64,000 nucleotides of DNA from Chroococcidiopsis sp. TS-821 (GTDB lineage: Bacteria > Cyanobacteriota > Cyanobacteriia > Cyanobacteriales > Chroococcidiopsidaceae): NCBI RefSeq assembly GCF_002939305.1, contig NZ_MVDI01000008.1, positions 124,001 to 188,000 on the forward strand, read 5' to 3'. Each line of letters opens with the position of its first letter. Position 1 is the stretch's first letter. The notes under the pieces were generated by a model that was not told the origin of the DNA, did no database searches, and saw only the letters and a list, made by a program, of their open reading frames with translations. Below are positions 1,101 through 18,900 of this stretch, piece after piece. The position numbers and the translations under genes are program-made.

Positions 1101-1134
1101 TCTTCCTCTGCACCTCTGCTTCCTCTGCTTCCTT
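1101..1134. repeat. GCAGAGG-type short tandem repeat
   Basis: Several copies of CCTCTGC (GCAGAGG on the other strand) separated by two or three bases. They fill the gap between the binding-lipoprotein gene and the sucrase/ferredoxin-like gene. This is one of about ten copies of this family in the window. Confidence 0.8.
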
Positions 1135-2165
1135 TAGCGCATTTGTTGCAGCTCATTGAGATATAATTCTGTACCAATTGGACCTGGCAAGCCGAGACAG
1201 GTGTACGCAGGAATGAAGTAAGTTCGTCCCGCTTGACTGGCGCGTAGCGATTGCGCGATCGCATTTTTTTCCCAACGCTGTTTTGCCATTTTCACCTGAT
1301 GAGTTGCAAATTCATCAACTGTCGGCGTAAGCGCAAAGTCAAACCCCAGAATAATTACCGAGTCAGCTTGGTTAAGGCTTGGTAGTTCCTCCACACTCAG
1401 CGGTAAAGAATTTTGTTGCGCGGGATCGAAATTTGGCGGATAAACTAATTGAAAACCCAGTTCTTGAATCAACCCACTACACAGATTATCTGTAGAACTC
1501 ACTAAGCGCATCTCGCTGGTACCAGCCGCAATCAGCATTAATACCCTAGGGTGAGAAGCAACAGTTGAAGCAAATTCTTGACGGGCTTCACTTATAGTTT
1601 GCTGCATTTGCGCAATAACTTGTTCTGCTTGTGGCGTGTCAATTGCTGTCGCGATCGCGCGTAAATTTGCTTCTGTATCGTACTGCTTTAAAAATAATGT
1701 CGGCGCAATTTTAGATAACGTCGCGTACAAATCAGCACTCAATTCTCGACTGACAATCAAATCAGGTTTCACCTTAACCAACGCTTCCAGCGAAGGACTA
1801 GCACTCCATCCTACATTGGCGATCGGATTTGTGATGCGATTTCCCAAGTAAGGAATTTGTTGCGGTGGGTTATCGTAATCGCCCTCAAAACGGACGTAAT
1901 CGCCAAATCCTACAGGTTGGACATCTAACGCTAGTAACAATTCCAGCATATCGGGACCTAGCGCTACTAAGCGCTGAGGTTTTCCGCAAATCTCGGTTTC
2001 GCCTATTTGATGCGAGATTTGACGACAATCGCCAGTCATTGTTGCTAACTGCGAATTGCTAACAGAAGGGTTAACACCGCAAGACACAATGACAAAAGCA
2101 GTCAGTGCAGCCACAAGCAGCAATTGAACGTTCTTGTATCTAACCATTCTGCTATACAAACTCAT
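1134..2165 (-). CDS. Iron-siderophore ABC transporter substrate-binding lipoprotein
   Basis: A periplasmic binding protein of the FecB/FhuD/BtuF type. It has a lipoprotein signal peptide (hydrophobic LLVAALTAFVIVSC with a lipobox Cys), then the start of the binding fold (PQRLVALGPDMLELLLAL), and a second lobe with GTSEMRLVSS and SVIILGFDFA. It should capture ferric siderophore after passage through the outer-membrane receptor. The start was set at the ATG of MSLYSRMVRY because GGGGAG lies just upstream and the longer reading frame would overlap the receptor gene; the product is about 343 residues. That GGGGAG is the end of a GCAGAGG repeat, so the repeat appears to supply the ribosome binding site. 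The gene lies 49 bp behind the TonB receptor, so the two are probably co-transcribed. No permease or ATPase gene is in the window. Confidence 0.88.
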   Translation of the reverse strand: MSLYSRMVRYKNVQLLLVAALTAFVIVSCGVNPSVSNSQLATMTGDCRQISHQIGETEICGKPQRLVALGPDMLELLLALDVQPVGFGDYVRFEGDYDNPPQQIPYLGNRITNPIANVGWSASPSLEALVKVKPDLIVSRELSADLYATLSKIAPTLFLKQYDTEANLRAIATAIDTPQAEQVIAQMQQTISEARQEFASTVASHPRVLMLIAAGTSEMRLVSSTDNLCSGLIQELGFQLVYPPNFDPAQQNSLPLSVEELPSLNQADSVIILGFDFALTPTVDEFATHQVKMAKQRWEKNAIAQSLRASQAGRTYFIPAYTCLGLPGPIGTELYLNELQQMR

Positions 2166-2167
2166 AA

Positions 2168-2211
2168 TTCTCCCCTGCTTCCTCTGCACCTCTGCGCCCT
2201 CTGCTTCTCTA
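2168..2211. repeat. GCAGAGG-type repeat carrying a ribosome binding site
   Basis: Tandem CCTCTGC units between the receptor stop codon and the lipoprotein start. On the minus strand the repeat ends in GGGGAGAATT directly before ATG, so it doubles as the Shine-Dalgarno region of the downstream gene. Confidence 0.75.
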
Positions 2212-2214
2212 TTA

Positions 2215-4743
2215 CTAAAACTCCACCGAGAACGAACCAATCACAGTAAACGGCGCACCAACTTGAATTCCACTCGTGCGAGCACCAGCATTAGAAGCCA
2301 CAAAATAATTTACGTCGAAAATATTGCGGAAATTGAGCGCCACGCGGTAGCGATCGCGTTGATAAAATATCGCCGCATTTGTGAGGAAGTAATCGCCCAA
2401 ATTGTATGTGTTTTCTAGATCGCCAAGACGATTTCCGACGTAATTGAATCCAACACCGAACCCTAAGCCTTGTAAGTCACCCGTTTGAAGTGTGTAGGTT
2501 GTCCACAAGCTTGCACTGTGTCTCGGAACATTCACTAACCGATTACCAGTAGGAATATCCGTATCTTGTGTTACTCTAGCATCGGTATAGGCGTATGCAG
2601 CAATAACGTTCCATCCAGGTAAAAGTTCTCCCGTTAAGTCGAGTTCAACTCCTTGGCTGCGTTGTTCGCCTGTCGCAACAGAAAAATCAGGATTCACGGG
2701 ATCAGTTGTTGCTACATTCTGTTTTCTAATGTCGTAATACGCTAGTGTGGCAAATAACCCAGGATTGAGTTCTGCTTTGACACCAACTTCCCAGCCTTCG
2801 CCGCGTTCGGGTTCTAAGAAATCACCGGCGACTGTGGTGGCTGTATTGGGATTAAACGATCGCGAGTAACTACCATAAAGCGAAATTTCGGGAATCGGTT
2901 GATAAACTAACCCAACGCGTGGCGTAAAAGCATCATCACTTTGGGTAACTTCCGAACCTTCTTCATTTACAAAGCTAGGATTTTGTACGCGGCGTTGTTC
3001 TACGGTGTCATAGCGTATCCCTGCTAAGAGTTTCAAATTGTCAAATAAATCAATTTGATCTTGTAAGTACACTCCCAAGCGATTTTGGGCGGTGAAGTTA
3101 TTAACTAGTACAGGTAATTCTGCGATATCAGGTCTAGGAGTTGCGCCATAGACGGGATCGAAGATATTTAGTGGAGAAATAGGCGGTGTAAATTGCCCAA
3201 AGAAGTTATCTGTTTGGCGGTTCAAATCTACACCAAAGAGCAATGTGTGACCGATCGTACCTGTTGTAAATTCACCAACAATATTCGTTTGCAGCGAGTA
3301 CGTTTGAAAGTTTAAATCGCGAGTTTGAAACGAACGCAGCAAATCGCCTGTTTCCTCGTCAAAAATAGTCGGAAAATAAAAACTCGTAAAATATTGCTGG
3401 TCGAAATACCGAAACGCATTTACAAGTCGCCAGTTGTCATTAAAACGATGTTCTAGCGAATATCCCACATTAAAAAATGTTGTTTCACTTTCGTCAGCAG
3501 GTTCGTTTGTAATGCGATCGCGTGGAACGTCAACAACACCATCACCGAACGCTACTAAACCAAAATCTAGCGGTTGCTTATCGTAGGTTAAATCTAAATT
3601 AAATGTGATATCAGTGCGATCGTCAATTTCCCACGCTAAGACGGGTGCGAGGAAGAAGCGTTCGTAATTTTGGTCAAAACCGCGAAACCCACTATCATTT
3701 TGCAATAAGGCATTAAAGCGATAGCGCAAGTCACCATCAGTCGTCAGTGGACCGGTTAAATCAATTCGCGGACGGAAAAAGTTACGATTACCTACTTGAA
3801 TTTCTGCTTCGTAAAACGGTTCTGCTAACGGCTGTTTGCTAACAACATTGATCGCCCCACCAGGTTGAAGATCGCCAAACAAGATAGAAGCGGGACCTTT
3901 AAGAACTTCAATTTGTTCTAAACCGGCGATTTCAGGAACTGCTCGCAAATTTCCATACTGGCGGAAACCATCGCGCAAGACCGGTGCATTAGGAAACCCG
4001 CGCACTGTAAAGTTTGTAAAGTTCCCAAACAAAGTATTGGAGGTAACGCTACTGACATTGCGCAGCGCTTCATCGAGTTGCGTCACTTGTTGCTCGCGCA
4101 ATACTTGTTGTGGTACTACCTGGATCGATTGCGGAATATCGCGTAAAGGTGTCTCGGTACGAGTTCCTGTTACTGCATCGGGAACAAAGTATCCTTGTTG
4201 GAGTTGTTCTCCGGTTACGGTAATAACAATTTCTTCATCTTGTGCTTCGTTTAGACTGTAAACAACCTCACCTACACGTAGTGTTACGGCTTCTGTAGGT
4301 AATGCGCCATCCCCCACGACACTAACTTGAATGGTGGAAGGATCGAGTTGTGTCACGCGCACACTTGCAATTTCAGCGGTAGGATTGTTCGCAACAAATT
4401 CTGGAGTATCAGGAAGTGCTAAAACTGCATTGGGAATATCCGCAATCAGCGTGTTACCTTCAATCCGAAAAGTTTCAGGATCGACTGCAAGAATTTCGTC
4501 TTGAGTTTCTAAGACAATTTCTAACCCTTGATCTGTAGTTAGTAGCTGTACATTTGTGACTTGTACGGGCGATTCATTTTCTGTTTCTTCAATAATTTGC
4601 GCTAACCACTCTTTAACCGTTGTCGCAGGAGATTGAGAATGCGATCGCGTTTTTTCTACAGTTTGTGCTTGAGCAATTTGAGCTACTAATACCGATAAGA
4701 TACTTGCGATTGTCAACGCAAGCGATCGCTGCAAAGATTTCAT
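2215..4743 (-). CDS. TonB-dependent siderophore receptor with N-terminal AMIN domain
   Basis: An 842-residue outer-membrane receptor. It has a Sec signal peptide (residues 1-26, ending AQIAQA). An AMIN-like domain follows (about 55-145: VTNVQLLTTDQGLEIVLET), a layout common in cyanobacterial receptors. The plug spans about 195-310 (RDIPQSIQVVPQQVL, IEVLKGPASILFGDLQPGGAINVVSK), and a 22-strand-type barrel ends in the terminal aromatic motif FSVEF. It should import the ferric siderophore, probably the product of the adjacent NRPS/PKS genes, using TonB-ExbB-ExbD encoded elsewhere. AAGGAAAT precedes the ATG. It heads the minus-strand uptake operon and diverges from the salicylate genes across a 739-bp intergenic region. 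Iron (Fur) control is expected for this family, but no convincing box is visible directly upstream. Confidence 0.95.
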   Translation of the reverse strand: MKSLQRSLALTIASILSVLVAQIAQAQTVEKTRSHSQSPATTVKEWLAQIIEETENESPVQVTNVQLLTTDQGLEIVLETQDEILAVDPETFRIEGNTLIADIPNAVLALPDTPEFVANNPTAEIASVRVTQLDPSTIQVSVVGDGALPTEAVTLRVGEVVYSLNEAQDEEIVITVTGEQLQQGYFVPDAVTGTRTETPLRDIPQSIQVVPQQVLREQQVTQLDEALRNVSSVTSNTLFGNFTNFTVRGFPNAPVLRDGFRQYGNLRAVPEIAGLEQIEVLKGPASILFGDLQPGGAINVVSKQPLAEPFYEAEIQVGNRNFFRPRIDLTGPLTTDGDLRYRFNALLQNDSGFRGFDQNYERFFLAPVLAWEIDDRTDITFNLDLTYDKQPLDFGLVAFGDGVVDVPRDRITNEPADESETTFFNVGYSLEHRFNDNWRLVNAFRYFDQQYFTSFYFPTIFDEETGDLLRSFQTRDLNFQTYSLQTNIVGEFTTGTIGHTLLFGVDLNRQTDNFFGQFTPPISPLNIFDPVYGATPRPDIAELPVLVNNFTAQNRLGVYLQDQIDLFDNLKLLAGIRYDTVEQRRVQNPSFVNEEGSEVTQSDDAFTPRVGLVYQPIPEISLYGSYSRSFNPNTATTVAGDFLEPERGEGWEVGVKAELNPGLFATLAYYDIRKQNVATTDPVNPDFSVATGEQRSQGVELDLTGELLPGWNVIAAYAYTDARVTQDTDIPTGNRLVNVPRHSASLWTTYTLQTGDLQGLGFGVGFNYVGNRLGDLENTYNLGDYFLTNAAIFYQRDRYRVALNFRNIFDVNYFVASNAGARTSGIQVGAPFTVIGSFSVEF

Positions 4744-5482
4744 AGATTTCCTTACACGCCAACTGACGTCTATAAAAACGAAAAGAATAATGTTGAGATT
4801 AATGAATTTGCTTGAGACGCTACACTATCTAGCCAGCATCATTTCTAAGAGTATAAAAATTTACTCAAAATTAAAAAAACCATAATTATACTGAAAATCT
4901 TTTAGTTTTAGCTATTTGGATTCTACAGAACACCGAACTGGGATCCTATCTTCGGTGATGACACAATAAACTAGTTGCACAACACATTCCACATTCATAG
5001 CCAATACGCCGTAGCACATCAAAGTTTAACTGTTGAAAGGTTTTGTCAACAGTCCTAGTTAAGATTAAAATGCTAGTTGCGTAAAGTCAACACTCAATCT
5101 TGTTTTGTACTGCATAATTTCTGAAAATGAGTTGACGAAGAAAGATGTAACGTTACAGATTATAGAGTATACATTATATGTTGAAGTGGTTTACATTTTT
5201 TCATAATGAATACTGCCTTAGAGGGCTGAAATTCGCTTGCGAAAAATTAGTACATGATATAAGCTCTTTGTAGCTTAATAGAAATCTTTTTTGATAAATT
5301 CCATGACTAATTGTTTAGTCGATGCGAGTGATTAAGACGACTAAGTAGGTAATGAGGCGATCGCCCCAGCTACAGAAACGCAGCATTGGTACAAACAAAA
5401 GCATTTACCCAAATCAAATTGAACTAACGCACGTCAACTTTCGTTTGCATCCAGAGGTATTTGATTGGATAGGTTAAAGGTA
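4744..5482. promoter_or_regulatory. Divergent intergenic region between uptake and salicylate operons
   Basis: 739 AT-rich bases without a credible gene. They must contain the promoters for the receptor (minus) and for the carrier/ligase/salicylate synthase set (plus). AT-rich -10-like stretches occur on both strands (for example TATACT on the minus strand near 4850), but no single promoter can be chosen. The 11-mer TACTGCCTTAG at 5210-5220, followed by a GCTG..AT stretch, recurs upstream of the KASIII gene near 10319. No perfect Fur palindrome was found. Confidence 0.5.
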
Positions 5483-5713
5483 ATGGATACGCTCAAAGCG
5501 ATTCTGGTTGATTTCGGTATTCCAGAATCTGCAATCCGTGAAGACACATTGTTATACGGACACTTACAGCTTGACTCGGTTGAGACAGTCAGACTTGCTC
5601 TAGAACTAAAGCGCCGCGTTGGTATCGATTTGAAGTTGGGAACTCGTAACGATATCACTTTGGGTGAAATTTGCCATCAAATTGCAGCGATGTTACCTGC
5701 TCAATCATCGTAA
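5483..5713 (+). CDS. Free-standing acyl/aryl carrier protein
   Basis: A 76-residue carrier protein. The phosphopantetheine attachment site is the Ser in LQLDSVETV (S32), followed by a typical helix II/III region (VRLALELKRRVGIDLKLG). The ATG at 5483 is chosen; an in-frame TTG lies 18 bases upstream. The gene stops 23 bp before an aryl-acid adenylating enzyme, which is followed by a salicylate synthase. The simplest role is therefore as the aryl carrier that receives salicylate, replacing the ArCP domain fused to NRPS or isochorismatase in other siderophore systems. Loading needs a 4'-phosphopantetheinyl transferase, which is not encoded in this window. The carrier call is firm; the salicylate assignment comes from context. 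Confidence 0.85.
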   Translation: MDTLKAILVDFGIPESAIREDTLLYGHLQLDSVETVRLALELKRRVGIDLKLGTRNDITLGEICHQIAAMLPAQSS

Positions 5714-5736: not shown

Positions 5737-7272
5737 ATGGAAAGTGTTTCTGCATTACCGAAAATCTTTAACGTAGCAGCTTATTTTCTAGACTTGGCGC
5801 AGCAACGCGGTGAAAGGATTGCCTTTTATTACCAGGATCAATCCTATACGTATGCTCAAGTGCGCACTTGGGTGCAACGGATGGCAAAACTCCTTGCTGA
5901 ACTAGGGCTAGAACGTGAAAACCGCATCGCGATTCTTTTACCGGATACGCCCGAATTTGTCTTTACGTTTTGGGGTGCAATTTGGCTAGGAAGCTTACCA
6001 GTTCCCATCAATACAGCTTGCACAGCGGATGACATTCAATATATTTTGCAAGACTCGCGTGCCAAAATTTTGGTAACAACGCAAGCTTGGTTAAATAACC
6101 TAGGAAAGATTGAGTCGCCATTTTTGCAACATGTTCTGACGATCGACGGCGATCGCCCGTTAATGTCTTTAGCACAACAAAGCGATGCGATCGCTTGGGC
6201 AGAAACGTCACCGGAGGAACCCGCATTCTGGCTATACACCTCAGGAAGTACAGGGCGACCGAAAGGCGTAATTCACTTGCATCAAAGTATGGTTGTTTGT
6301 GCCGAACTCTATGGCAAGCAAGTTTTAGGCTTACGCGCAGACGATATTATCTACTCAGTAGCCAAGATGCCCTTTGCGTATGGGTTAGGGAATACATTGT
6401 ATATGCCTATGGCAGTCGGTGCTGCTGCGATTCTTTCTGATGCGGCAAATGCGTTTGACGTTATCGCAGACATTGAAAAATATCGACCAACCATTTTGTT
6501 TGGTATTCCTGGAATTTACGCGGGTATTTTGGCTGTGCATGAAATTGCGCCGCTGAATTCATCATCACTGCGACTGTGTGTTTCTGCTGCGGAACAACTA
6601 CCGAAAACGATTTGGTTGAAGTGGCAACAAACACACGGTATGGAGATTTGCGAAGGAATTGGCACGACAGAGTTGTTGCACATTTTTCTATCAAACACCC
6701 CTAATGCGTGTCATCCAGGAACTTCAGGACGCCCAGTTCCAGGCTATGACGTTCAAGTCGTTGACGAACAAGGAGTTCCCACACAACCTGGTGAAATTGG
6801 GTACTTACAAGTGAGCGGCGAAAGTTTGATGTTAGGGTACTGGAATCGTTTGCGCGAAACTCGCAACGCGCTTTACGGAACAACGATGCAAACCGGAGAT
6901 AAGTACGTCCGCGATGCAGATGGTTATTTTCGGTTTATGGGACGCAAAGACGACTTTTTTAAGGTTAATGGGATGTGGGTGTCGCCGTTTGAAGTTGAGG
7001 ATGTGTTACTTCAGCACGAAAGTGTATTAGATGCGGCTGTTGTTCCAGAAGTGCAGAACGAGCAATTAACTCAGGTCACTGCTTACGTCAGTCTCAAAGC
7101 CGGTTATGAAGCTTCCCATGATTTAGAAAACAGCATTCGCCAGCTGCTGAAGGCGCATTTGCAGTCGTTTAAAGTACCTAAAAGCATTCATTTTCTCAAA
7201 ACGATACCGCGCACGCCGACTGGGAAAGTGCATCGTCAAGCATTACTGAAAAACACATTAGTTGAAGTTTGA
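5737..7272 (+). CDS. Aryl-acid AMP ligase (benzoate-CoA ligase-like; probably salicylate-activating)
   Basis: A 511-residue ANL-superfamily adenylating enzyme. The P-loop is YTSGSTGRPKG (about 167-177), the A5 region is GIGTTE, the A7/A8 regions are TGDKYVRD and GRKDDFFKVNGMWVSP, and the C-terminal catalytic Lys lies in RTPTGKVHR. The stretch KMPFAYGLGNTLYMPM resembles benzoate-CoA ligases more than the EntE/DhbE group. Next to a salicylate synthase and a free carrier, the likely reaction is salicylate + ATP to salicyl-AMP, then transfer to the carrier thiol. It could instead form a CoA thioester; sequence alone does not separate these. AAGGAAA lies about 10 bp upstream of the ATG. The spacing of 23-26 bp to both neighbours indicates one transcript. 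Confidence 0.87.
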   Translation: MESVSALPKIFNVAAYFLDLAQQRGERIAFYYQDQSYTYAQVRTWVQRMAKLLAELGLERENRIAILLPDTPEFVFTFWGAIWLGSLPVPINTACTADDIQYILQDSRAKILVTTQAWLNNLGKIESPFLQHVLTIDGDRPLMSLAQQSDAIAWAETSPEEPAFWLYTSGSTGRPKGVIHLHQSMVVCAELYGKQVLGLRADDIIYSVAKMPFAYGLGNTLYMPMAVGAAAILSDAANAFDVIADIEKYRPTILFGIPGIYAGILAVHEIAPLNSSSLRLCVSAAEQLPKTIWLKWQQTHGMEICEGIGTTELLHIFLSNTPNACHPGTSGRPVPGYDVQVVDEQGVPTQPGEIGYLQVSGESLMLGYWNRLRETRNALYGTTMQTGDKYVRDADGYFRFMGRKDDFFKVNGMWVSPFEVEDVLLQHESVLDAAVVPEVQNEQLTQVTAYVSLKAGYEASHDLENSIRQLLKAHLQSFKVPKSIHFLKTIPRTPTGKVHRQALLKNTLVEV

Positions 7273-7298: not shown

Positions 7299-8621
7299 AT
7301 GTATCAGGTCGTCAGCGATCCGCTAGTTTACCATGAGTTGTTTGTTCCTGTACAAAAAGATCCGCAATGCTTGTTGCAAACGTTGTTGAGTCTTGGGCTT
7401 TCCAGTTATATGCTGTACCAAAGCGAGCAGGAAACGCGTATTGCTGGTAATGCTTTGTGCAGTATTACTATTAGTAGCGATGCGGTTGTGTGCGATCGCT
7501 TCGGAAAAACTCAATCGCAACCGATAGGCGATCCACTCAAGCAAGTCGAGTCGATCCTCGCGTCTTTACCTATCGAAGATTGGACGGCGTACGGTTACAT
7601 CAGTTTCGATCTCGCGCGTTTTTACTACCCCTATACGAAGGCGATCGCGCAGCCGTTACTTTATTTTGTGATTCCGGAAACCGAGTTACATATAACAGCG
7701 AAAGGTATCCGCATCCGCAGCGTTAAATCGCTAACCAAAATTCTCGAAGCTTTGTCAGTTGATAATTCAACGCAAAACTATACAGCGACGCCACTAGAAG
7801 TTGATTTTAGCGATCGCGCGCACTATCAAACGCAAGTGGGCAAATTAATTCAAGCGATTCAAGCAGGAGATTTGCACAAAGCCATTCTGTCGCGATCGGT
7901 GCAAGTTCAAGGTGAGATGGATGTGCTAGGAACGTATTGTTTAGGCGCGCAAAGCAATAACAGCGCGCGATCGTATTGTTTTGAGTTCGACAACGTCCGC
8001 GCTGTGGGTTTTAGCCCTGAAATTTTGATGAAAGTCGATGGCGATCGCATTATTACCAATCCTCTCGCTGGAACTCGACCCCGTGCTGAAAACGCGCAAC
8101 ACGATCAAAAGTTATATCGCGAGTTGTTTACCGATGCCAAAGAAGTCAAAGAACACGCGCTTTCTATTTGGCTAGCACAAGCAGAAATGGCGGCGTTTTG
8201 TTCGCCAGATACGGTGCAAGTTTACGATTTTATGCAAGTGAAACAATATCGCTGCGTGCAACACCTATCATCACGAGTGGGCGGTCAACTCAAAGCAGGA
8301 AAAACACTTTGGGATGCTTTAAAAGTTTTGTTTCCTGGAATTACGGTGTCAGGTATTGATAAATATCGCGCCTTGAAATGGATTGACGCTTTGGAAGCCG
8401 AACCAAGGGGAATTTATGCTGGGGGTATTGGTTGGGTAAATAGTCGTGGAATGGCAGATATTGCGATCGCAATTCGTTCGGTTTACCAATACGGTCATAC
8501 AATTCATTTCAACGCTGGTGCGGGAATTGTCGCCGAGTCGATACCAGAAAATGAATATTTAGAGTCGGTTAATAAGATGAATACGATGTTGAGCAATCTA
8601 GTTTTGCGATCGCGTGGTTGA
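7299..8621 (+). CDS. Salicylate synthase (Irp9/MbtI/YbtS type)
   Basis: A 440-residue chorismate-utilising enzyme of the MbtI/Irp9 group, expected to convert chorismate through isochorismate to salicylate plus pyruvate. Visible landmarks are K194 in LHKAILSR and E241 in FSPEIL, spaced 47 residues apart like the base/acid pair of MbtI (K205/E252). Others are NPLAGTRPR, AKEVKEHALS, VQHLSSRV, FPGITVSGIDK (Thr at 349, as in salicylate synthases, where EntC-type enzymes have Ala), and the C-terminal metal-site motif AGAGIVAESIPENEY. No isochorismatase or dihydroxybenzoate dehydrogenase is nearby, which supports salicylate rather than dihydroxybenzoate as product. It is the last gene of the three-gene set. 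A GCAGAGG repeat follows its stop codon, and the next gene is convergent. Confidence 0.9.
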   Translation: MYQVVSDPLVYHELFVPVQKDPQCLLQTLLSLGLSSYMLYQSEQETRIAGNALCSITISSDAVVCDRFGKTQSQPIGDPLKQVESILASLPIEDWTAYGYISFDLARFYYPYTKAIAQPLLYFVIPETELHITAKGIRIRSVKSLTKILEALSVDNSTQNYTATPLEVDFSDRAHYQTQVGKLIQAIQAGDLHKAILSRSVQVQGEMDVLGTYCLGAQSNNSARSYCFEFDNVRAVGFSPEILMKVDGDRIITNPLAGTRPRAENAQHDQKLYRELFTDAKEVKEHALSIWLAQAEMAAFCSPDTVQVYDFMQVKQYRCVQHLSSRVGGQLKAGKTLWDALKVLFPGITVSGIDKYRALKWIDALEAEPRGIYAGGIGWVNSRGMADIAIAIRSVYQYGHTIHFNAGAGIVAESIPENEYLESVNKMNTMLSNLVLRSRG

Positions 8622-8723: not shown

Positions 8724-10037
8724 TTAGGAATGAGATTTTGTTTCTTCGCGATCGCGATCGTAGTCAGGTAACAGATCTTCGGCGTTGCGTAGCGTGGGAA
8801 ATGCAAAACCGCCCACACCGATCAAAACCATACAAAGTGAGATCGTAATGTACAACAAGGCAATGCCAGCGCCGGAACCTGTTCCTACTAGCGGTGCAAA
8901 TATCGACGCTATCCACCCTCCTGAAGTCATTGTCAGTTCCAATTGGTCAGCTAAAGGTCCTGCGACTAAACTTGCAACTGCACCCACAATTAAACCAATG
9001 GTGTGCGCAGCGGCTAAAACTCGCCCCTGAATATCTGGTTTAACCTTGGCATACCACACTGCATAACTCGAACTATACACGAGCGGAATATTCAACGCCG
9101 CAAAGAACTGCGCGCCAATCCATATACTCGGTACGCGCCCTAATCCTAAGACAATACTACCCACGCCAGTGCCCACAAACCCCAGCAACATCCCGCGTAC
9201 TTGGCGCTGAAAGCCACCAAAAATGCTTAAACCCACTGCCCCAACAACACCGCCGATACCCGCTGCAATGACAACTGTACTTAATACCTGCGCACTTCCA
9301 CCTGTGCGTGCCAGAATCAATGGCTGATACAAGGTTTCGCTCATGTGGTAGGTAAATAAAAATAAGCAGAAAACGATTGTCATTGCTTGTAGGCTAGGTC
9401 TAGCTAAGATATAGCGGATACCCCATGTCAGTTGTTTCCAAATTGTTTTACTTGTCAGTGTTGTGGCTTCTAAATCAAACGTTTGGGGAATATGGATTAA
9501 AAATACGGTAAAGATTCCCACCGCAAATGTGGCAATATCAATCGCAATGATGCCGAGTAAACCGACTGTGGGATACAAAAGACCAACTAAAGCTGGCGCA
9601 ATAATTGCAGAACTATAGTTGACGAGAGTCTTCAGACTGGTGACGCGGGCGTAGTGCTGCTTGGGCACAATTGATGAAATTGATGCAGTAAAAGCTAAGG
9701 TTTGAATTTGTCCGCAGCAGCCGTAGGCGATCGCTAAACTATAAAGATGCCAAAGTTGCAAAGTTTGGGTGGAGTACAATAGCCCAATCAAAAGCGTACA
9801 CAGCGCCACAACTACATCGCTGAAAATCATTAAGTACTTGCGACTGAAGCGATCGATAATTAAACCTGCAAACAGCGCAATCAAGATTTGCGGTAGCTGA
9901 AAGAAGAAACTAATCAGCGCGATCGCTGTTGTCTCTTGTGTTGCTTGCCAAATCCAAATTGTGAGCGCAAATTGGGTCATTTCCGTCCCAATCGCAGATG
10001 CCATCTGCCCGCTCCAGAGAATTGTGAAGGTACGCAC
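8724..10037 (-). CDS. MFS exporter (EntS-like, MFS_3 type)
   Basis: A 437-residue major facilitator protein with about 12 membrane segments. The N-terminus (MRTFTILWSGQMASAIGTEMTQFAL) and the loop AGLIIDRFSRKYLM (MFS signature between TM2 and TM3) match the family containing the enterobactin exporter EntS and macrolide exporters. Its place between the salicylate genes and the assembly line suggests it exports the finished siderophore across the inner membrane; this is inferred from context. The start is GTG with no clear Shine-Dalgarno sequence. The gene is convergent with the salicylate synthase and divergent from the KASIII gene, with a shared 453-bp regulatory gap. Confidence 0.85.
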   Translation of the reverse strand: MRTFTILWSGQMASAIGTEMTQFALTIWIWQATQETTAIALISFFFQLPQILIALFAGLIIDRFSRKYLMIFSDVVVALCTLLIGLLYSTQTLQLWHLYSLAIAYGCCGQIQTLAFTASISSIVPKQHYARVTSLKTLVNYSSAIIAPALVGLLYPTVGLLGIIAIDIATFAVGIFTVFLIHIPQTFDLEATTLTSKTIWKQLTWGIRYILARPSLQAMTIVFCLFLFTYHMSETLYQPLILARTGGSAQVLSTVVIAAGIGGVVGAVGLSIFGGFQRQVRGMLLGFVGTGVGSIVLGLGRVPSIWIGAQFFAALNIPLVYSSSYAVWYAKVKPDIQGRVLAAAHTIGLIVGAVASLVAGPLADQLELTMTSGGWIASIFAPLVGTGSGAGIALLYITISLCMVLIGVGGFAFPTLRNAEDLLPDYDRDREETKSHS

Positions 10038-10490: not shown

Positions 10491-11957
10491 ATGACAACGC
10501 CATCGGTCGGTATTCGCTCACTGGCAATTAGCTTTCCCCAAACAACTCGCACCAACGACTATTGGTTGGCAAAATTTCCGCAATTAGGCAATCAAACACA
10601 ACGACAAGCTAGGCTACCGCAGCTTACATCAAGCGAAAATGGGCTTGATATCTGGTTACAAGAAGTCGCTCCATATCTTAGCGATCCTTTTCGGGGTAGC
10701 GTTGGGCGGCGCGTGTTGGCGAGTAACGAATCGTCACTGACGCTAGAATGTCGTGCAGCACAAGCAGCACTTTCATCAGCGCAACTGACAGCAGATGAAG
10801 TTGATTTAGCGATCGTTGCTTCACTCTTTCCCGATACAGTAGGTCCAGGATTAGCGGCTTTGCTAGCAAGGGAACTAGGATTGCGTTGCCCTGCTTGGAA
10901 TTTAGAATCGACTTGCGCAAGTGCGTTGATTGCGTTGCAAACGGCTCAAGCATTCATTCAGACTGGAGTTTATCATCGTGTCTTAATCGTTGTCTCGCAT
11001 ATTGGTTCGCGTTGTGTCAACGACGAAGATACGCTTTCATGGTCGATGGGTGACGGTGCGGGAGCATTTATTGTAGGCTCTGTCAAACCAAATCAAGGCA
11101 TTCTCAGTACCAAAATTGTATCGACATCTACAACGTATGGAGCGTACGTACATGAATTAGTCGTTGATGCCCAAGGTAAACCGCGTATTCAAACTCGTAC
11201 AGGCGAAAACGCGAGTAGCTTAGCCGAAACTGCGGTTGATTGTATCCGCCATTGCTGTCAAGAAGCAGTCAAAGCCGCAGGCGTAAGTCTCGATCAAATT
11301 AGCGTGTTTGCTGTCAATACACCAACTGCCTGGTATGCAAGCGTCTGTGCCAAAGCCCTTGGTATTGATCCGCAGCGCGTGATGAATCTTTACCCGCTGT
11401 ACGCAAATATAGGTCCAGTATACTCGGTTGCTAATCTTTATCACGCTGTTACCACAGGTAAGCTTGGTAAAGATGATTTGGTATTGGTATACGCTAACGG
11501 TGCTGGGGCGACAGCTGCGGCGACTGTTATGCGTTGGGGAGATGTTGCTATAAGTTCAACAGATGATTCATCAACAATTGCACAGCAAGCGACATCAGTG
11601 GTAGCAACACCGCCGCATGTGGATCCTGTGCGATTACCAGCTGCTGTTAACCCAGAAGAACGCTATGCGTTTTTGGAAGCTTATCTGTGCGAGTGGCTAG
11701 CACACTCTACCCAGCGTGCGTCGGCTCAACTTCATTCTCACGTATTGTTGAGTACATTGCTTGATTCTTTACTAGCGATCGCCTTGCGCAGTCGCATTGA
11801 AAGTGATTTAAAAGTGCGAGTTCCGATGGAAAAATTCTTTGGAGAGACAACGATCGCCGATCTCGTAAAATTTTTGTGCGATCAATTAGTCGTGACAGAA
11901 ATTGTGAACTCCAAAACGGCAACTTCAACCTCAGCGCGGGAAATTGTGCATTTGTAA
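10491..11957 (+). CDS. KASIII-like acyltransferase fused to a C-terminal carrier domain
   Basis: A 488-residue protein with two parts. Residues 1-350 follow the FabH/KASIII fold: catalytic Cys C142 in LESTCASALIAL, GDGAGAF, and an Asn in YANIGPVYS (N306, matching FabH N274). Where FabH has its catalytic His (PHQAN), this protein reads NTPTAW (276-281), so the His needed for decarboxylative condensation is missing. Residues about 390-475 resemble a PKS carrier domain, with TLLDSLLAIALRSRIESDL (phosphopantetheine Ser S426), VPMEKFFGE and TIADLVKFL. I know of no standard gene of this architecture. It may be a transacylase that moves an aryl or acyl group between carriers. It opens the plus-strand assembly-line set; an ATG start is used. 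Confidence 0.8.
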   Translation: MTTPSVGIRSLAISFPQTTRTNDYWLAKFPQLGNQTQRQARLPQLTSSENGLDIWLQEVAPYLSDPFRGSVGRRVLASNESSLTLECRAAQAALSSAQLTADEVDLAIVASLFPDTVGPGLAALLARELGLRCPAWNLESTCASALIALQTAQAFIQTGVYHRVLIVVSHIGSRCVNDEDTLSWSMGDGAGAFIVGSVKPNQGILSTKIVSTSTTYGAYVHELVVDAQGKPRIQTRTGENASSLAETAVDCIRHCCQEAVKAAGVSLDQISVFAVNTPTAWYASVCAKALGIDPQRVMNLYPLYANIGPVYSVANLYHAVTTGKLGKDDLVLVYANGAGATAAATVMRWGDVAISSTDDSSTIAQQATSVVATPPHVDPVRLPAAVNPEERYAFLEAYLCEWLAHSTQRASAQLHSHVLLSTLLDSLLAIALRSRIESDLKVRVPMEKFFGETTIADLVKFLCDQLVVTEIVNSKTATSTSAREIVHL

Positions 11958-12162: not shown

Positions 12163-12297
12163 TTAATTTCTCCCTCTGCCCCTCTGCTTCCTCTGCTTCC
12201 TCTGCTTCCTCTGCCCCTCTGCTTCCTCTGCTTCCTCTGCCCCTCTGCTTCCTCTGCCCCTCTGCTTCCTCTGCCCCTCTGCTTCCTCTGCTCCCTA
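12163..12297. repeat. Long GCAGAGG-type tandem repeat array
   Basis: About 135 bp of alternating TTCCTCTGC and CCCCTCTGC units (GCAGAGG on the minus strand), making up much of the gap between the KASIII fusion gene and NRPS 1. The remaining bases of that 409-bp gap (11958-12366) are AT-rich and hold no credible gene. Confidence 0.9.
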
Positions 12298-12366
12298 TTT
12301 ATAGCAACTTCAAAGCGAAACGATCTTAAGGGCTGCTCAGAATTTAGCTATTCATTGTGCAAAAAT

Positions 12367-15300
12367 ATGAACAATTTGCATTCACTGCTGAACTTACTAG
12401 CAAACAGCGACATTAAATTATCAGTTGATGGAGATGCATTGCGCGTTGATGCTCCGCAAGGGAAATTGACGGCAGAATTACGCGATTTACTCGTGCAACA
12501 CAAAGCTGAACTGCTCGCACTGTTGCAGCAACATAATAGCAGTACACTTGTGAATGATTTGCCAGCGATCGCGCCCGCGCCAGAGTTACGTTATGAACCG
12601 TTTCCCTTGACTGATATGCAACACGCCTTTTGGATCGGGCGCAGTGGCGTGTTAGAACTCGGTCATGTCTCCAATCACGGTTATTACGAAATTGAAGGTC
12701 ACAATCTTGATGTAGCGCGACTCAACACCGCGTTGCAACGATTAATTGCGCGACACGATATGCTGCGGGCTATTGTGCTACCTGACGGACAACAGCAAAT
12801 TCTTAAAGATGTACCGCCTTATCAACTCAAAGTTTTGAACTTAAGAGGACAAGATCGAGAAACTGTTGCGACGCAGCTAGAAGCAATTCGTCAAGAAATG
12901 TCGCATCAAGTTTTACCCGCCGATCGATTTCCGCTGTTTGACTTTCGCGCAACGTGCTTAGATGGCGATAAAGTTCGGTTACACATTAGCTACGATCTCC
13001 TTGTGTTTGACGCTTGGAGTTTGTTTCGTTTATTTGAAGAATGGTTTGAGCTTTATCAAAATCCTGAATGCACTTTGCCACCGTTGGAACTTTCGTTTCG
13101 CGATTATGTTCTGGCTGAGCAATCACTTGTGCAAACACAACTTTATCAACGATCGCAATTCTTTTGGCTCAACCGCATCGACAAGTTACCACCTGCACCC
13201 AGCTTACCTTTAGCTAAAAACCCGAAAGAACTCAAACAACACCGTTGCCAACGCTACAACGCGCGCATGGAAGCCTCAGACTGGCAACAACTCAAACAAA
13301 AAGCCACAAACTTTGGTCTGACGCCAACAGGAGCCTTACTTGCGGCGTTTGCCGAAATTTTAACGCTGTGGAGTAGCCCGCAATTTACGCTGAATTTAGC
13401 ATTGTTTAATCGCTTGCCGATGCATCCGCAAGTGAATAATATCTTGGGCGACTTCACGTCGGTAACACTTTTAGCCGTCGATAACTCAAAGCATGAATCA
13501 TTTCGCGATCGCGCATTGCAAATTCAAAAGCAACTTTGGCAAGACTTAGAACATCGTTACTTTAGTGGCGTGCGCGTCACCCGCGAACTCACACGCCGAC
13601 AAGGTGGCACACCGAATGCATTGCCAGTCATTTTTACAAGTACGTTGGGTTTTGCTGGAATTGGGCAGGAAACATTAACTTTTAGTCATTTTGGCGAGTT
13701 GGTTTACGGTATTAGCCAAGCCTCACAAGCGTGGATTGATGTCCAAGTTTGGGAAGAAAAAGACACCTTGACTTTCAACTGGGATGTCGTCGAAGGTTTA
13801 TTTCCTGATGGGTTAATCGCCGATATGTTTGCGACGTACAGCCGCTTTCTGCAACAACTGGCAAATTCTGAAGCCGCTTGGTACGAGACAACCCGCGAAC
13901 TTCCGCCACATCAATTAGCGCAACGCAATGCCATCAACGCCACCGATGCACCGATTCCAGATGTGCTGTTGCACGAACTATTTATCAATCAAGTTCGCCA
14001 AAACCCCGATCGCCCAGCGGTGATTGCGTCGCAACGAACGCTGAGTTATCAAGAATTATGCGATCGCGCAAATCACATTGCGCATCAATTGCGTTCTTCT
14101 GGCGCTGTTCCCAATCAGCTAATTGGCATTGTCATGGATAAAGGATGGGAACAAATCGTTGCCGTCATGGGCATTTTAATGGCTGGCGCTGCTTACGTTC
14201 CGATCGATCCTAAATTACCAGCAGAACGCTTGGCGTATCTCCTCAAAAACAGCGAAGTCAAAATCGTGCTGACGCAATCGTGGTTGGATGAGAAATTACC
14301 TTGGCTGGAAGGCATTCAGCGGTTGTGCGTAGATGATGCACTTGTTCATCATCAGGAAGTACTCGCATCAGTTCAAACACCCGACGATCTCGCGTATGTC
14401 ATCTATACTTCTGGTTCGACAGGCTTGCCCAAAGGCGTGATGATTACGCACCGCAATGTAGCGAATGTGGTAGTTTACACGAATCAACGATTTGGGATAA
14501 ATGCAAGCGATCGCATTCTCGCATTAACCGCACTCAATCACGACTTATCGGTATATGACATTTTTGGTTTACTCAGTGCTGGCGGCGCGCTTGTGATTCC
14601 TGATGCGTGTTTAGTTAAAGATCCGCACCACTGGGCAAAGTTAATTCAACGCGAACAAGTGACGTTGTGGAACTCGGTTCCGGCGATGATGGAAATGTTG
14701 GTAAATAGCTTAGGCGATTTTTCAGCAACGCTTTCGAGTTTGCGCTTGGCAATTTTAGGCGGCGATTGGCTACCAGTTTCGCTGCCTAACCGCCTTAAAG
14801 CGATCGTACCCGATATTAAATTATTGAGCATTGGTGGACCAACCGAAACGACGATTTGGAATATTGGCTATGAAGTAAATGCGGTCGATCCGAGTTGGAA
14901 AAGCATTCCTTACGGTCAGCCGATGACTAATACGAAATACTACATACTAAACGAAGCCTTAGAAGATTGTCCCGTTTGGGTGCCAGGAGAAATGTATTGT
15001 GCAGGCGTGCAACTTGCCAAAGGCTACTGGAAAGACGAACAAAAGACAAAGGCTCACTTTATCGCGCATCCACGCACAGGCGAACGACTTTATCGTACTG
15101 GCGATCTTGGTCGCTATTTACCCGATGGCAACATTGAATTTTTAGGGCGAGTTGATTTTCAAATCAAAATCCGCGGCTATCGTATCGAAGCTGGAGAAAT
15201 TGAGGCGGCGTTGATGCAACATTCAGGGGTCAAAGCTGCGGTTGTCAAAGCTGTAGATGCAGCGCGTTTGGTTGCCTATGTCGTACCCCATACAACACCA

Positions 15301-15807
15301 CCAACAGTTGACGAACTCAGTCAGTTTTTGAGCAACAAACTGCCAGATTATATGATACCTGCGGTGTTTCTTTTTCTCGATGCACTGCCACTATCAGCAA
15401 ATGGCAAAATTGACCGCAAGGCACTACCAACGCCAGATGTCGCCTCATCAACGCGAAGGACGTATGCGGCTCCCCAAACCGAAATTGAGCAGGCGATCGC
15501 CACTGTGTTTCAAGAGGTATTATCACTCGACAAGGTAGGAGTCACTGATAACTTTTTTGACCTGGGTGCTAACTCTTTATTAATCACAACAATCTACAGA
15601 AAGCTAGCAACAGTTTTACCAACAGAAATTCAATCAATTTCAATTATTGATTTATTTAACTACCCCACAATTAGAACTTTAGCTCAGCGATTAAATCAAT
15701 CGCAGAAAACTGATGAAAATGAGCGACGCAATCATGCATCGCAAAAATTAATTCAAGGTAAAAATCGAATTAAACAAAAGTTTGAAAAATCAAGAATTTC
15801 AAAATAA
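12367..15807 (+). CDS. NRPS module 1: TubC docking - Cy - A (Cys-like) - PCP
   Basis: About 1146 residues. Residues 1-60 form a TubC-type docking domain (VDAPQGKLTAELRDLL). Next is a heterocyclisation domain, recognised by D-x4-D-x2-S (DLLVFDAWS, about 210-218) in place of HHxxxDG. The A domain (about 525-1020) has YTSGSTGLPKG, GGPTETT, RTGDLGRY and NGKIDRK. Reading the ten selectivity positions gives D-L-Y-N-I-G-I-I-W-K, closest to the Cys code DLYNLSLIWK. The PCP has its Ser in LGANSLL (about 1070), followed by a Lys/Arg-rich tail, perhaps a docking element. Expected step: couple cysteine to the salicyl group and cyclise to a hydroxyphenyl-thiazoline. No epimerisation, methylation or reductase domain is present. 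The start at ATG 12367 is preferred over the in-frame TTG at 12355. Confidence 0.92.
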   Translation: MNNLHSLLNLLANSDIKLSVDGDALRVDAPQGKLTAELRDLLVQHKAELLALLQQHNSSTLVNDLPAIAPAPELRYEPFPLTDMQHAFWIGRSGVLELGHVSNHGYYEIEGHNLDVARLNTALQRLIARHDMLRAIVLPDGQQQILKDVPPYQLKVLNLRGQDRETVATQLEAIRQEMSHQVLPADRFPLFDFRATCLDGDKVRLHISYDLLVFDAWSLFRLFEEWFELYQNPECTLPPLELSFRDYVLAEQSLVQTQLYQRSQFFWLNRIDKLPPAPSLPLAKNPKELKQHRCQRYNARMEASDWQQLKQKATNFGLTPTGALLAAFAEILTLWSSPQFTLNLALFNRLPMHPQVNNILGDFTSVTLLAVDNSKHESFRDRALQIQKQLWQDLEHRYFSGVRVTRELTRRQGGTPNALPVIFTSTLGFAGIGQETLTFSHFGELVYGISQASQAWIDVQVWEEKDTLTFNWDVVEGLFPDGLIADMFATYSRFLQQLANSEAAWYETTRELPPHQLAQRNAINATDAPIPDVLLHELFINQVRQNPDRPAVIASQRTLSYQELCDRANHIAHQLRSSGAVPNQLIGIVMDKGWEQIVAVMGILMAGAAYVPIDPKLPAERLAYLLKNSEVKIVLTQSWLDEKLPWLEGIQRLCVDDALVHHQEVLASVQTPDDLAYVIYTSGSTGLPKGVMITHRNVANVVVYTNQRFGINASDRILALTALNHDLSVYDIFGLLSAGGALVIPDACLVKDPHHWAKLIQREQVTLWNSVPAMMEMLVNSLGDFSATLSSLRLAILGGDWLPVSLPNRLKAIVPDIKLLSIGGPTETTIWNIGYEVNAVDPSWKSIPYGQPMTNTKYYILNEALEDCPVWVPGEMYCAGVQLAKGYWKDEQKTKAHFIAHPRTGERLYRTGDLGRYLPDGNIEFLGRVDFQIKIRGYRIEAGEIEAALMQHSGVKAAVVKAVDAARLVAYVVPHTTPPTVDELSQFLSNKLPDYMIPAVFLFLDALPLSANGKIDRKALPTPDVASSTRRTYAAPQTEIEQAIATVFQEVLSLDKVGVTDNFFDLGANSLLITTIYRKLATVLPTEIQSISIIDLFNYPTIRTLAQRLNQSQKTDENERRNHASQKLIQGKNRIKQKFEKSRISK

Positions 15808-15912
15808 ATGAGCTTGGCGAATGAATCCGCAGCTAAACGAACAAAATCCACCTGCGTGGAATTAAGATTCAGAGTTTGATTGTGGCGTGCCTGCCTACAT
15901 GCCTCTATATTC

Positions 15913-15926
15913 CCGACTTCAGTCGG
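15913..15926. repeat. Small perfect hairpin before the PKS start
   Basis: CCGACT-TC-AGTCGG is a perfect six-base stem followed by AGGAT, in the 151-bp gap between NRPS 1 and the PKS. It lies within the longer PKS reading frame (from GTG 15887), which argues that translation really begins downstream at ATG 15959. Confidence 0.6.
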
Positions 15927-15958
15927 AGGATCTTATATCATCATTGCGAGAAAGCAAC

Positions 15959-18900
15959 ATGAGCAATCAAAATGGTTTAGAAATTGCAGTTATTGGCTTA
16001 TCTGGAAGGTTTCCAGGGAGCAAGAATATTGAAGAATTTTGGAACAATTTAGCAGCAGGAATTGAATTAATTTCTACTTTTACAGACGATACACAACCTG
16101 CAAATGCGATCGCTAAAGTTGGTGGCGTGTTATCAGACGTCGATCAATTTGATGCGGCATTTTTTGGTTTTAATCCCCGCGAAGCGGAAGCAATGGACCC
16201 GCAACATCGCCTCTTTTTAGAATGTGCTTGGGAAGCACTCGAAAATGCTGGTTACAGTACCGATGCGGATAAATCGATTGGCGTGTTTGCTGGCGTAGGG
16301 ATGGGAACGTACCTGTTGTATAACCTCAGCCCCAACCAGGAATTCATGGCATCGCGAGGTTTTTTGCAAACATTAGTGGGAGTTGATAAAGATTACTTAC
16401 CTACGCGAGTTTCCTACAAATTAAATCTCACAGGACCAAGCATAAGTGTCGGGACAGCGTGTTCAAGTTCGTTAGTCGCGGTGCATTTGGCGTGTCAAAG
16501 TCTACTCAGTGGCGAATGCGATATGGCTTTAGCGGCGGGAGTTGCTGTTAAAGTACCGCAAAACGAATTAACGTTATCTCCCGATGAAATTGCTTCTCCT
16601 GATGGGCATTGTCGCGCGTTTGACTGTCGGGCAAATGGTACAGTTGGCGGCAATGGCGTTGGAGTCGTTGTTTTGAAGCGGCTTGAAGATGCGATCGCCG
16701 ATCGCGACTGTATTTATGCTGTCATCAAAGGTTCTGCAATTAATAACGACGGCGCGCTGAAAGTAGGCTACACCGCACCGAGTGAGGCGGGGCAAACACG
16801 CGCGATCCGCACGGCGCAAATGATTGCTGAAGTGGAACCGGAAACGATTTCCTACATGGAAACGCACGGTACAGGAACAACATTAGGCGATCCGATTGAA
16901 ATTGCCGCAATGACGCAAGCGTTTCGCGAGTCAACAAACCAAAAACAGTTTTGCGCGATCGGTTCAGTGAAAACGAATATCGGACATCTCGACGCCGCAG
17001 CAGGAATTGCAGGTTTAATTAAAACGATTCTGGCACTGTATCACCAGCAAATTCCCCCTAGTCTTAACTTTGAGACTCCCAATCCGCAGATTAATTTTGC
17101 CGAAAGTCCGTTTTACGTCAATACTCAGTTGCGCGAGTGGAAATCTAACGGCAATCCCCGTCGTGCGGGAGTCAGTTCGTTTGGGTTCGGTGGTACAAAC
17201 GCCCATGTCGTACTAGAAGAAGCTCCTGTTTTACCCAAACAGACAACTCAGGGATATCAACTTTTAACGTTATCGGCTAAAACAGCGACAGCGTTAACGC
17301 AAGCAACGCTGAATCTGCGCGATCGCCTTCGTCAATCACCTGAAATCAATTTAGCTGATGTTGCTTATACGCTGCAAATCGGTCGTCGCTCTTTCGATTA
17401 TCGGCGGATGGTTGTCGCGCAAACTGTAGAAGAAGCAATTCAAGCACTCGACGATCCGCAGCGGATTGTTACAGGTTATACGCAAGCAAGCGATCGCGCT
17501 GTCATTTTTATGTTTCCTGGACAAGGTTCGCAATACGTCAACATGGCGCGGGAACTTTACAACAGCGAACCGTTGTTTCAAGCTGAATGCGATCGCCAAT
17601 TTGCTATCCTTGCGCAACACAATATAGATTTACGTCAAGTCATCTATCCTACTACGGCAGAAGCTCAAACAACGCAACTAGGGCAAACTGCCTTTACTCA
17701 ACCTGCACTCTTTGTCATTGAGTATGCACTAGCAAAACTGTGGATGTCTTGGGGCGTACAACCGAGGGCGATGATTGGACACAGTATTGGCGAATATGTC
17801 GCGGCGTGTCTTGCTGGAGTTTTTTCACTCGAAGATGCGCTGAAATTGGTTGCAGTACGCGGACAACTGATGCAGCAACAGCCTCCTGGCGCAATGCTTG
17901 CTGTTCATTTATCTGCCCTAGATGTACAACCATTCTTACACGCATCACTCTCGCTGGCGGCGAGTAATAGCCCACACCTGTGCGTCGTTTCTGGAACAAT
18001 TGAGGCAATCCAAAACCTAAAACGCGAATTAACTGCTAAGAAAATTGAGAGTCGCTTGTTGCATACTTCCCATGCGTTTCATTCAGCGATGATGGAAAGC
18101 GTTGTCACACCTTTCTTAAAACAGTTCGAGTCGATTCGCCTTAACCCGCCACAAATTCCGTTTATCTCAAACGTAACAGGTACGTGGATCGCAGCCACAG
18201 CTGCAAATCCACAATACTGGGCACAGCATTTGCGGCAAACAGTCCAATTTTCCCAAGGAATTGCTGAACTATTAAATCTCCCCGACCCGATTTTTCTAGA
18301 AGTTGGACCAGGCTCGACACTTAGCACTTTAACAAAACAACAAGCTGCACAAAGTGTTTTTGCGTCTTTACCGCATCCCAAGGCACAATCAGGCGATTGC
18401 GCTACGCGCAGCACCGGAGGCGATCGCGAATTTCTTTTGCAAACAGTAGGAAAACTTTGGCTAGAAGGTGTTGCGATCGATTGGGCTAGCTTCTACGCAC
18501 GCCAGCAACGTCACCGCGTACCGCTACCGACGTATCCTTTTGAACGTCAGCGATATTGGATTGAACCACCCCAAGCATCGTCAAGCAGCGCTGTGGCGAC
18601 ACGTAAAACGGACATCGCCGACTGGTTTTATATCCCGTCGTGGAAGCGTTCGCCTATACCACAAATTATCAACAACAAGCAAAAGCAATGTTGGTTGATC
18701 TTTGCCGATCGCAACAACGTAGCCACAGCGATCGCCCAACGACTACAGCAACAAGAACATCAAGTTATTCTGGTGTATGCCGGTGAAAGTTATAGTCACC
18801 ACGATAATGTTTACACGCTTCATCCAGGCGATCGCGAACACTATCAAACTCTAATTCAAGAAGTCCTTGCTCGCGACGAAGCCCCAATCATTGCGCATCT

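Follow-up and report, generated by a model that had tools for sequence, protein, structure and literature searches.

We show that one gene of the window, by which we mean the whole stretch of 64,000 nucleotides from Chroococcidiopsis sp. TS-821 analysed here, encodes a KASIII domain fused to a carrier domain (10491..11957, + strand; ATG start, 488 aa), and we suggest, at a probability of roughly 0.7, that the product acts as a self-loading starter-unit transacylase, moving salicyl onto its own carrier for the Cy module of the neighbouring protein. What the sequences show directly is how the domains are arranged, which residues have been replaced, that the gene is linked to salicylate genes and that both docking partners are conserved; the role itself is proposed.

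The gene belongs to a cluster of the salicyl-thiazoline metallophore type, with an iron-scavenging compound as its probable product. Metallophore uptake is represented on the − strand (1134..4743) by a periplasmic binding protein (1134–2240) and a TonB-dependent receptor with an AMIN domain (2215–4743), and an MFS exporter is encoded on the same strand (8724..10037); the other genes discussed lie on the + strand. Among these are genes for a free, discrete carrier protein, the proposed salicyl donor (5465..5713, 82 codons, probable ATG at 5483), which scores 18.9 bits against the PP-binding model where the cut-off is 20.8 bits (two orthologues tested pass, with 24.1 and 29.3 bits), an aryl-acid ligase of the benzoate-CoA ligase family (5737..7272; TIGR02262, 516.5 bits, cut-off 375.25) and a salicylate synthase (7299..8621; TIGR03494, 329.7 bits, just above the cut-off of 325.15). 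Beyond the fusion gene come an NRPS with the order docking domain-Cy-A-PCP (12355..15807), a KS-AT-KR-ACP PKS (15887..20449), a MupA/Atu3671-type luciferase-like monooxygenase (20475..21701, from the probable ATG at 20475 within an ORF of 20382–21701; TIGR04020, 481.6 bits) and a further NRPS, C-A-PCP-C (21754..26361), in which no thioesterase match was found. The Cy-A-PCP protein begins with a TubC_N (β-hairpin) docking domain (12379..12531; PF18563, 60.5 bits, residues 9–59). Its heterocyclization domain, the proposed salicyl acceptor (12604..13866; Condensation, PF00668), carries DLLVFDAWS, in agreement with the DxxxxDxxS motif that is the mark of Cy domains.

From this arrangement we infer a route in which the substrate (salicyl), the donor (the free carrier), the direction of transfer, the catalysis and the physical docking are all proposed. 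The salicylate synthase would supply salicylate, and the ligase would activate it and most likely load the free carrier with it. In the next step the KASIII domain would bind salicyl as a thioester on Cys142, presumably without decarboxylation, since with Asn276 in place of the His it lacks the intact His–Asn pair by which FabH decarboxylates malonyl groups. From there salicyl would move to the phosphopantetheine arm that Ser426 carries in the C-terminal carrier of the same protein. With the last six residues of the fusion docked on the TubC/β-hairpin domain of the neighbouring Cy-A-PCP protein, the Cy domain could condense salicyl with cysteine to give a thiazoline, the fused carrier standing in for the aryl carrier domain that immediately precedes Cy in yersiniabactin-type systems.

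The preliminary description of this DNA had it that C142 and N306 of the FabH triad are kept, that the His motif PHQAN has become NTPTAW and that a carrier with Ser426 stands at the C-terminus, and the ORF, the Pfam matches and an alignment with FabH confirm each point. Pfam places ACP_syn_III (PF08545) at residues 138–211, ACP_syn_III_C (PF08541) at 261–349 and PP-binding (PF00550) at 424–462, all above the curated cut-offs. The KASIII domain, with both the N- and the C-terminal part of the thiolase fold, covers residues 1–355 (10491..11555) according to Pfam, an AlphaFold model and PDB structure matches, and the fused carrier covers approximately residues 390–465 (11658..11885), the C-terminal part alone scoring 34.7 bits. 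When the protein is aligned with FabH of its own genome, the Cys, His and Asn columns fall on C142, N276 and N306, the His column being the N of NTPTAW. Cys142 (codon 10914..10916), the predicted acyl-accepting nucleophile, is Cys in all 15 fusions now at hand, in 15 of 15 standalone relatives and in three of three further standalones, and Asn306 (11406..11408) is likewise Asn in all 15 fusions and all 15 standalones. Asn276 (11316..11318) occupies the His column in every one of the 15 fusions, none of which has the Cys-His-Asn triad of FabH, and Ser426 (11766..11768), the phosphopantetheine attachment Ser in LLDSLLA, is equally invariant among them; three PF01648 matches in the genome are candidate phosphopantetheinyl transferases. 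Against the NCBIfam fabH model (TIGR00747) the window protein scores 121.8 bits, below the cut-off of 292.1. The chain closes with the hexapeptide REIVHL (11937..11954), which we propose as a docking peptide of the SLiM type.

The AlphaFold model, built from six aligned sequences, has a mean pLDDT of 66.3; most ten-residue blocks of the KASIII domain lie at about 60–95, residues 31–70 near 35–41 and the carrier mostly below 50. Among PDB structures PqsC (Z 37.1) and Staphylococcus aureus FabH (Z 36.6) are tied as closest matches, differing by less than 1, and the best 50 entries, with FabH, PqsC and PqsD structures among them, span Z 33.6–37.1; CerJ is absent from these 50 and is a weak sequence match (E 7.1e-7).

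A search for further KASIII–PP-binding fusions, and for their linkage to salicylate genes, had been put forward as a check, and both parts of it came out in favour of the association. Fourteen fusions of identical architecture were found beyond the window by a contig scan, a search of 386 cyanobacterial genomes and a plasmid search, so that the window fusion is neither a chance event nor an assembly artefact; the 15 distinct fusions are those of the window, L003, L004, L005, L037–L040, L042–L046, L066 and L067, L041 having been dropped as a locus identical to L004. L066 lies on a plasmid of Pseudanabaena ABRG5-3, L067 on a plasmid of Chroococcidiopsis CCNUC1, and L003, with a fusion of 508 aa, comes from a Coleofasciculus MAG. 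Fusions measure about 490–520 aa and standalone relatives 363–390 aa. All 15 are cyanobacterial, a range that reflects sampling, the searching having been mostly within Cyanobacteria and the cross-phylum contig scan, with its six peptide patterns, being sensitive to close relatives only.

Among the 386 genomes, in each of which up to four candidates were scored so that genome counts are lower bounds, the fusion occurs in at least 10 and a salicylate synthase (E ≤1e-60) in at least 13, all 10 being among the 13 (P 1.6e-17, phylogeny ignored). A salicylate synthase stands in the same cluster as the fusion in 15 of 15 cases, truncated in L046 by the end of the contig. Fourteen of the 15 clusters, that of the window included, also hold the ligase and a relative of the free carrier, L046 again stopping at the contig end; donor carrier, activating enzyme and second carrier are thus found together in these 14, as in a CloN2-type transfer. 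In L067 the free carrier lies about 19 kb from the ligase and does not adjoin it, a point that tells against our reading.

Salicylate synthases also occur apart from the fusion. In G005, in G070 and at a second locus of the window genome (G000:C3), a free carrier, a ligase and a salicylate synthase are accompanied by a pair of discrete ketosynthases, and the fusion was not found in the stretches fetched around these salicylate cassettes; in G213 and in the second G278 copy the salicylate synthase has no carrier–ligase cassette nearby. The cassettes with discrete ketosynthases imply that the carrier–ligase pair also serves other acceptors and that the KASIII-carrier goes with the Cy NRPS. In all three of the fusion-less salicylate cassettes that hold a ligase (L057, L061 and L080) the free carrier adjoins it and, considering that it is also present in 14 of 15 fusion clusters, this carrier looks like the partner of the ligase.

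On these sequence patterns we lean towards the free carrier, rather than salicyl-CoA, as the probable salicyl donor. The alternative, which we hold to be unlikely but deserving of serious weight, is that the ligase makes salicyl-CoA, which the fusion would use as FabH uses acetyl-CoA, with the same acceptor and the same docking, the free carrier serving otherwise. The ligase belongs by its 516.5-bit score to a CoA-ligase family, so that its product could be salicyl-CoA, and KASIII enzymes classically take acyl-CoA. PqsD, moreover, covalently holds anthranilate, to judge from the title of structure 3h77. Two observations speak against this alternative, namely the recurrence of the free carrier and its place beside the ligase, as just described, and the state of the CoA site. 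In FabH, Trp32 and Arg151 stack the CoA adenine (PMC4606726). When the FabH CoA-site positions are mapped onto the fusions through the FabH of the window genome, Trp32 corresponds to Phe67 in 15 of 15 fusions, Arg151 to the position of Thr181 (Thr in 11, Ser in four) and the Arg36 position is deleted; the adenine-stacking residues are replaced throughout, and this speaks for a carrier rather than CoA as the donor. The loss is not specific to the fusions, because the 15 standalone relatives have the same Phe and the same Arg36 deletion, with Thr (13) or Val (two) at the Arg151 position.

How the proposed transacylase would work without the FabH His is a question in itself. In FabH, mutants of H244 keep transacylation and lose decarboxylation. 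A substitute His had been named as a point to check, and alignment of 13 fusions gave none that is invariant, the commonest being His170 (11 of 13) and His318 (12 of 13), so that a replacement His was rejected as a candidate. The loss of the His, together with the position of the carrier directly upstream of Cy and the joining of all these parts in a single protein in L046, could be taken to mean that the KASIII domain has become an inactive scaffold, the ligase loading the fused carrier directly, in the way that YbtE loads the aryl carrier of HMWP2. We regard this as improbable: all 15 fusions have Cys142, Asn276 and Asn306, conservation is higher in the KAS part than in the carrier (mean pairwise identity among fusions 66% against 44%), which with the invariant Cys argues against a relict domain, and a conserved free carrier would be left without a role.

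A transacylase of the KASIII type does have parallels, if imperfect ones. The catalytic residues of ChlB3 are Cys113, His296 and Asp301, the H295N substitution in CerJ abolishes all malonyl transfer, and KSIII enzymes are described as using the Cys for transacylation and other residues for Claisen-like condensation (PMC9573744). From residue spacing, the His of ChlB3 and CerJ appears to sit at the FabH Asn position; if so, the window family, with Asn at the FabH His position and Asn306 (15 of 15) at the inferred ChlB3 His position, would be without both known His positions while keeping the catalytic Cys as Cys142. The likeness to known KASIII transacylases drawn in the preliminary description therefore holds in part only: KASIII fold and Cys nucleophile are shared, but ChlB3 and CerJ retain a catalytic His elsewhere, and the window family differs from both those enzymes and FabH. 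Since the H295N form of CerJ is dead, it is not self-evident that a KASIII transacylase could function with no His at all.

It seems to us highly improbable that the domain is a gatekeeper or editing enzyme, with Cys142 accepting wrong or stalled acyl groups that would then be hydrolysed or recycled; ChlB3 does hydrolyse 6-methylsalicyl-SNAC (PMC9573744), but such a role would explain neither why a carrier with a docking tail is fused to the domain nor why Cy is preceded by no other carrier. Scarcely tenable is a condensing enzyme that still forms a C–C bond, for instance with another residue in place of the His: the FabH-type Cys and Asn are kept and His170 and His318 are frequent, yet neither is invariant in the 13 fusions compared, and lusichelin and fatuamide, both from clusters with a salicylate synthase, are reported with salicyl joined to thiazoline without added acetate (PMC12210259, PMC11877528).

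The preliminary description had left two targets for the fused carrier, the Cy domain or product release, and for the transacylase that we propose the evidence points to the first. In each of the 14 split systems the N-terminal docking domain of the Cy protein leads straight into Cy, with no carrier ahead, so that an AMP-ligase-loaded aryl carrier before Cy in cis, the yersiniabactin arrangement, is found in none of them; L046 alone has carrier and Cy in cis, with KASIII in front, as a single KASIII-carrier-Cy-A-PCP protein of 1585 aa. Thirteen of the 14 Cy partners are encoded in the fusion's own cluster, and in G008 the partner is the genome's sole match, on another contig. The DxxxxDxxS motif was found in 13 of 13 partner proteins. 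All 14 partners align to the docking domain, the Pfam scan having covered the window protein, and of the window's three NRPS/PKS proteins the Cy-A-PCP protein alone matches PF18563.

The other half of the junction is the C-terminus of the fusion. Fourteen fusions have a free C-terminus, and 12 of them close with a conserved charged and hydrophobic peptide, R-E-x-x-x-L/I, and mean pairwise identity in the last six residues is 58%, as against 12% in the ten residues that precede the last eight. SLiM peptides of fewer than 15 residues are described as binding to β-hairpin docking domains where PCP meets Cy, salt bridges linking the peptide to the strand, and in one solved complex the contact is made by the last five residues only (PMC9113145). 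The two exceptions, L004 and L005, have two Glu and no Arg in their last six residues, and the docking strand of their partners has Arg where the others have Asp (11) or Asn (one). Such a pairing of tail and strand would arise by coincidence once in 91, a post hoc figure uncorrected for kinship that concerns two of 14 cases and maybe one event; the charge match is thus suggestive support for docking. The conserved tail, the docking domain of the Cy protein and the single protein of L046 all fit a hand-over to Cy, and product release, which could be invoked for a cluster whose last NRPS has no thioesterase match, was rejected as having a negligible chance, given the docking tail, the position of the gene ahead of the Cy gene, the restriction of a tail-fitting docking domain among the window NRPS/PKS proteins to the Cy protein, and the terminal C domain of the last NRPS itself, which resembles FatQ, where release by the C domain was proposed as one option (PMC11877528).

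Outside the fusions, the standalone relatives give a wider view of the family. In a tree rooted at the midpoint the fusions form one clade (100/99), and the whole clade, standalones included, is split from FabH (100/100), with a warning from the program about the meeting of the long branches of FabH and L070/L071. The genome search, with up to four candidates scored in each genome, gave 13 cyanobacterial standalones at ≥43% identity, of which 10 were taken with their neighbours and three for residues only. The FabH His position holds Asn in 12 of 18 standalones, Tyr in three, Thr in two and His in one (L053), the last of these speaking against a strictly His-less clade.

Several standalones have neighbours of an aromatic-acid kind: an aromatic amino acid lyase is encoded next to L055 and L047, as is a ligase, L047 also lying beside an O-methyltransferase and a ThDP enzyme, and L051, L006, L068 and L069 lie beside a ThDP enzyme. 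Next to L070 and L071 lie an A domain, an acyl-CoA dehydrogenase and a discrete carrier, the setting in which NTPTAW homologues occur in Streptomyces and Mycetohabitans; in clorobiocin biosynthesis a carrier/A domain/acyl-CoA dehydrogenase cassette forms the pyrrolyl-carrier (PMC11218499). Both settings, the aromatic-acid one and the pyrrolyl-type cassette, are in keeping with an aryl transacylase. As a tentative generalization, for which we would give slightly short of even odds, the His-less KASIII clade with NTPTAW and a retained Cys and Asn may be a class of aromatic-acyl transacylases relying on the Cys with main-chain or Asn help; in cyanobacteria it would have fused with its acceptor carrier into a self-loading starter gate, at which the assembly of salicyl-thiazoline metallophores would generally begin.

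The published fatuamide and lusichelin proposals lead directly from salicylate, either activated or bound to a free carrier, to the Cy module (PMC11877528, PMC12210259), and as set out there they omit an enzyme that seemingly connects salicylate activation with that module. If our reading is correct, the loading step of this metallophore family would have a name, nature would offer a starter module that loads itself and whose docking peptide is portable, and enzymology would gain the question of how a KASIII domain transfers acyl groups without a catalytic His at either known position.

As for known systems, the preliminary description knew of no standard gene with this architecture, which calls for correction, as the gene has probably been published before under the name FatG, in the fatuamide A cluster from Leptolyngbya. 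FatG is given as 1524 nt, annotated '3-oxoacyl-(acyl carrier protein) synthase' and has a Coleofasciculus KAS III as its best match (Table 2 of PMC11877528); like the window gene it lies between the salicylate genes and the gene of a Cy-A(Cys)-PCP protein, FatH, and its length fits the fusions and not the standalones. By its size and best match FatG is probably a KASIII-carrier fusion; the cluster section of that paper mentions neither a role nor a carrier domain for it (PMC11877528). In the literature searched, mostly openly available main texts, neither a KASIII-carrier fusion nor a role for FatG nor a measured transfer by such an enzyme was found; such an enzyme is not mentioned in the lusichelin text consulted (PMC12210259), and a text find for 'KAS' and 'fatuamide' in the eLife metallophore-mining paper gave nothing. 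The present work adds to this the fusion with a carrier, the clade lacking the His, the proposed docking by the tail and the proposed loading role.

Among the other systems compared, CloN2, a KASIII homologue, has a task like the proposed role, in that an aromatic acyl group is moved between two carriers. It is reported to mediate pyrrolyl transfer from CloN5 to a second carrier, CloN1 (PMC11218499), and we liken it by this description, not by sequence; CloN2 and CloN1 are separate proteins, unlike the window fusion. ChlB3 similarly transfers 6-methylsalicyl from carrier to carrier, but ChlB3 and CerJ differ from the window family in their Cys-His-Asp residues, no fused carrier is mentioned in the account consulted, and the acceptor of CerJ is a sugar (PMC9573744). 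KS0 domains, condensation-incompetent ketosynthases of type I PKSs, also pass chains from carrier to carrier (PMC7618002). Theirs is a type I KS and not a KASIII, whereas in the window the acceptor carrier is fused and the cargo would be a starter unit. In yersiniabactin-type siderophore assembly an aryl carrier domain, in HMWP2 loaded by YbtE, stands directly before Cy, and the window is proposed to resemble this in presenting salicyl on a carrier immediately ahead of a Cy-A(Cys)-PCP module; it differs in having a KASIII domain and a second, free carrier in between, and in that the carrier usually resides on a separate protein, apparently joined to the Cy protein by docking.

Relatives of the KASIII–carrier fusion within its own clade, which is separated from FabH, include standalone KASIII genes lying beside genes for aromatic-acid metabolism. 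In two of these loci (L047 2769-10310, with the motif NTPSAW, and L055 9193-14261, with YTATAW) an aromatic amino acid lyase and a ligase adjoin the KASIII gene, and L047 additionally carries an O-methyltransferase and a ThDP enzyme nearby; we suggest that both loci possibly encode cinnamoyl-type pathways. A further member of the clade (L053 9338-10474) still has His at the FabH position (FHTTSAW), a natural contrast for probing the His-less mechanism.

Among the loci that hold the fusion, the Cy-A-PCP partner protein of L044 (6457-8904) is only 816 aa long and its A domain matches that of the window only in part; a further A domain is encoded close by in the same cluster (13130-15685). The salicyl cluster of Pseudanabaena ABRG5-3 (L066 4800-34062), which includes a siderophore ABC transporter, a TonB receptor and TonB/ExbBD genes, is located on a 111 kb plasmid and may therefore be mobile between strains. 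In Chroococcidiopsis CCNUC1, too, the cluster (L067) sits on a plasmid.

Outside the window, the same genome carries a second salicylate cassette, without the fusion in the stretch analysed (L080 110-8618, G000:C3), comprising a free carrier, a ligase, salicylate synthase and two discrete ketosynthases. The same gene set is present in two other cyanobacterial genomes, as L057 in G005 and, judged by gene sizes and BLAST, as L061 in G070; according to Pfam searches run on the L057 copy, the set further includes a member of the cyclase family, an alpha/beta hydrolase and a protein resembling ketopantoate reductase. The cassette has the appearance of a type II PKS primed with salicyl.

Within the window, mutually related tandem repeats of 8-9 base, AGCAGAGG-like units (8630-8713, 10078-10113, 12173-12296, 21533-21662 and 26391-26473) are distributed around the cluster's genes; the repeat at 21533-21662 is coding, and the luciferase-like monooxygenase carries its translation in the C-terminal tail. 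The last NRPS (21754-26361) ends in a C domain and has no thioesterase match, and its product is likely to be released via this terminal domain. FatQ of the fatuamide cluster (PMC11877528) similarly has a terminal C domain and no thioesterase match.
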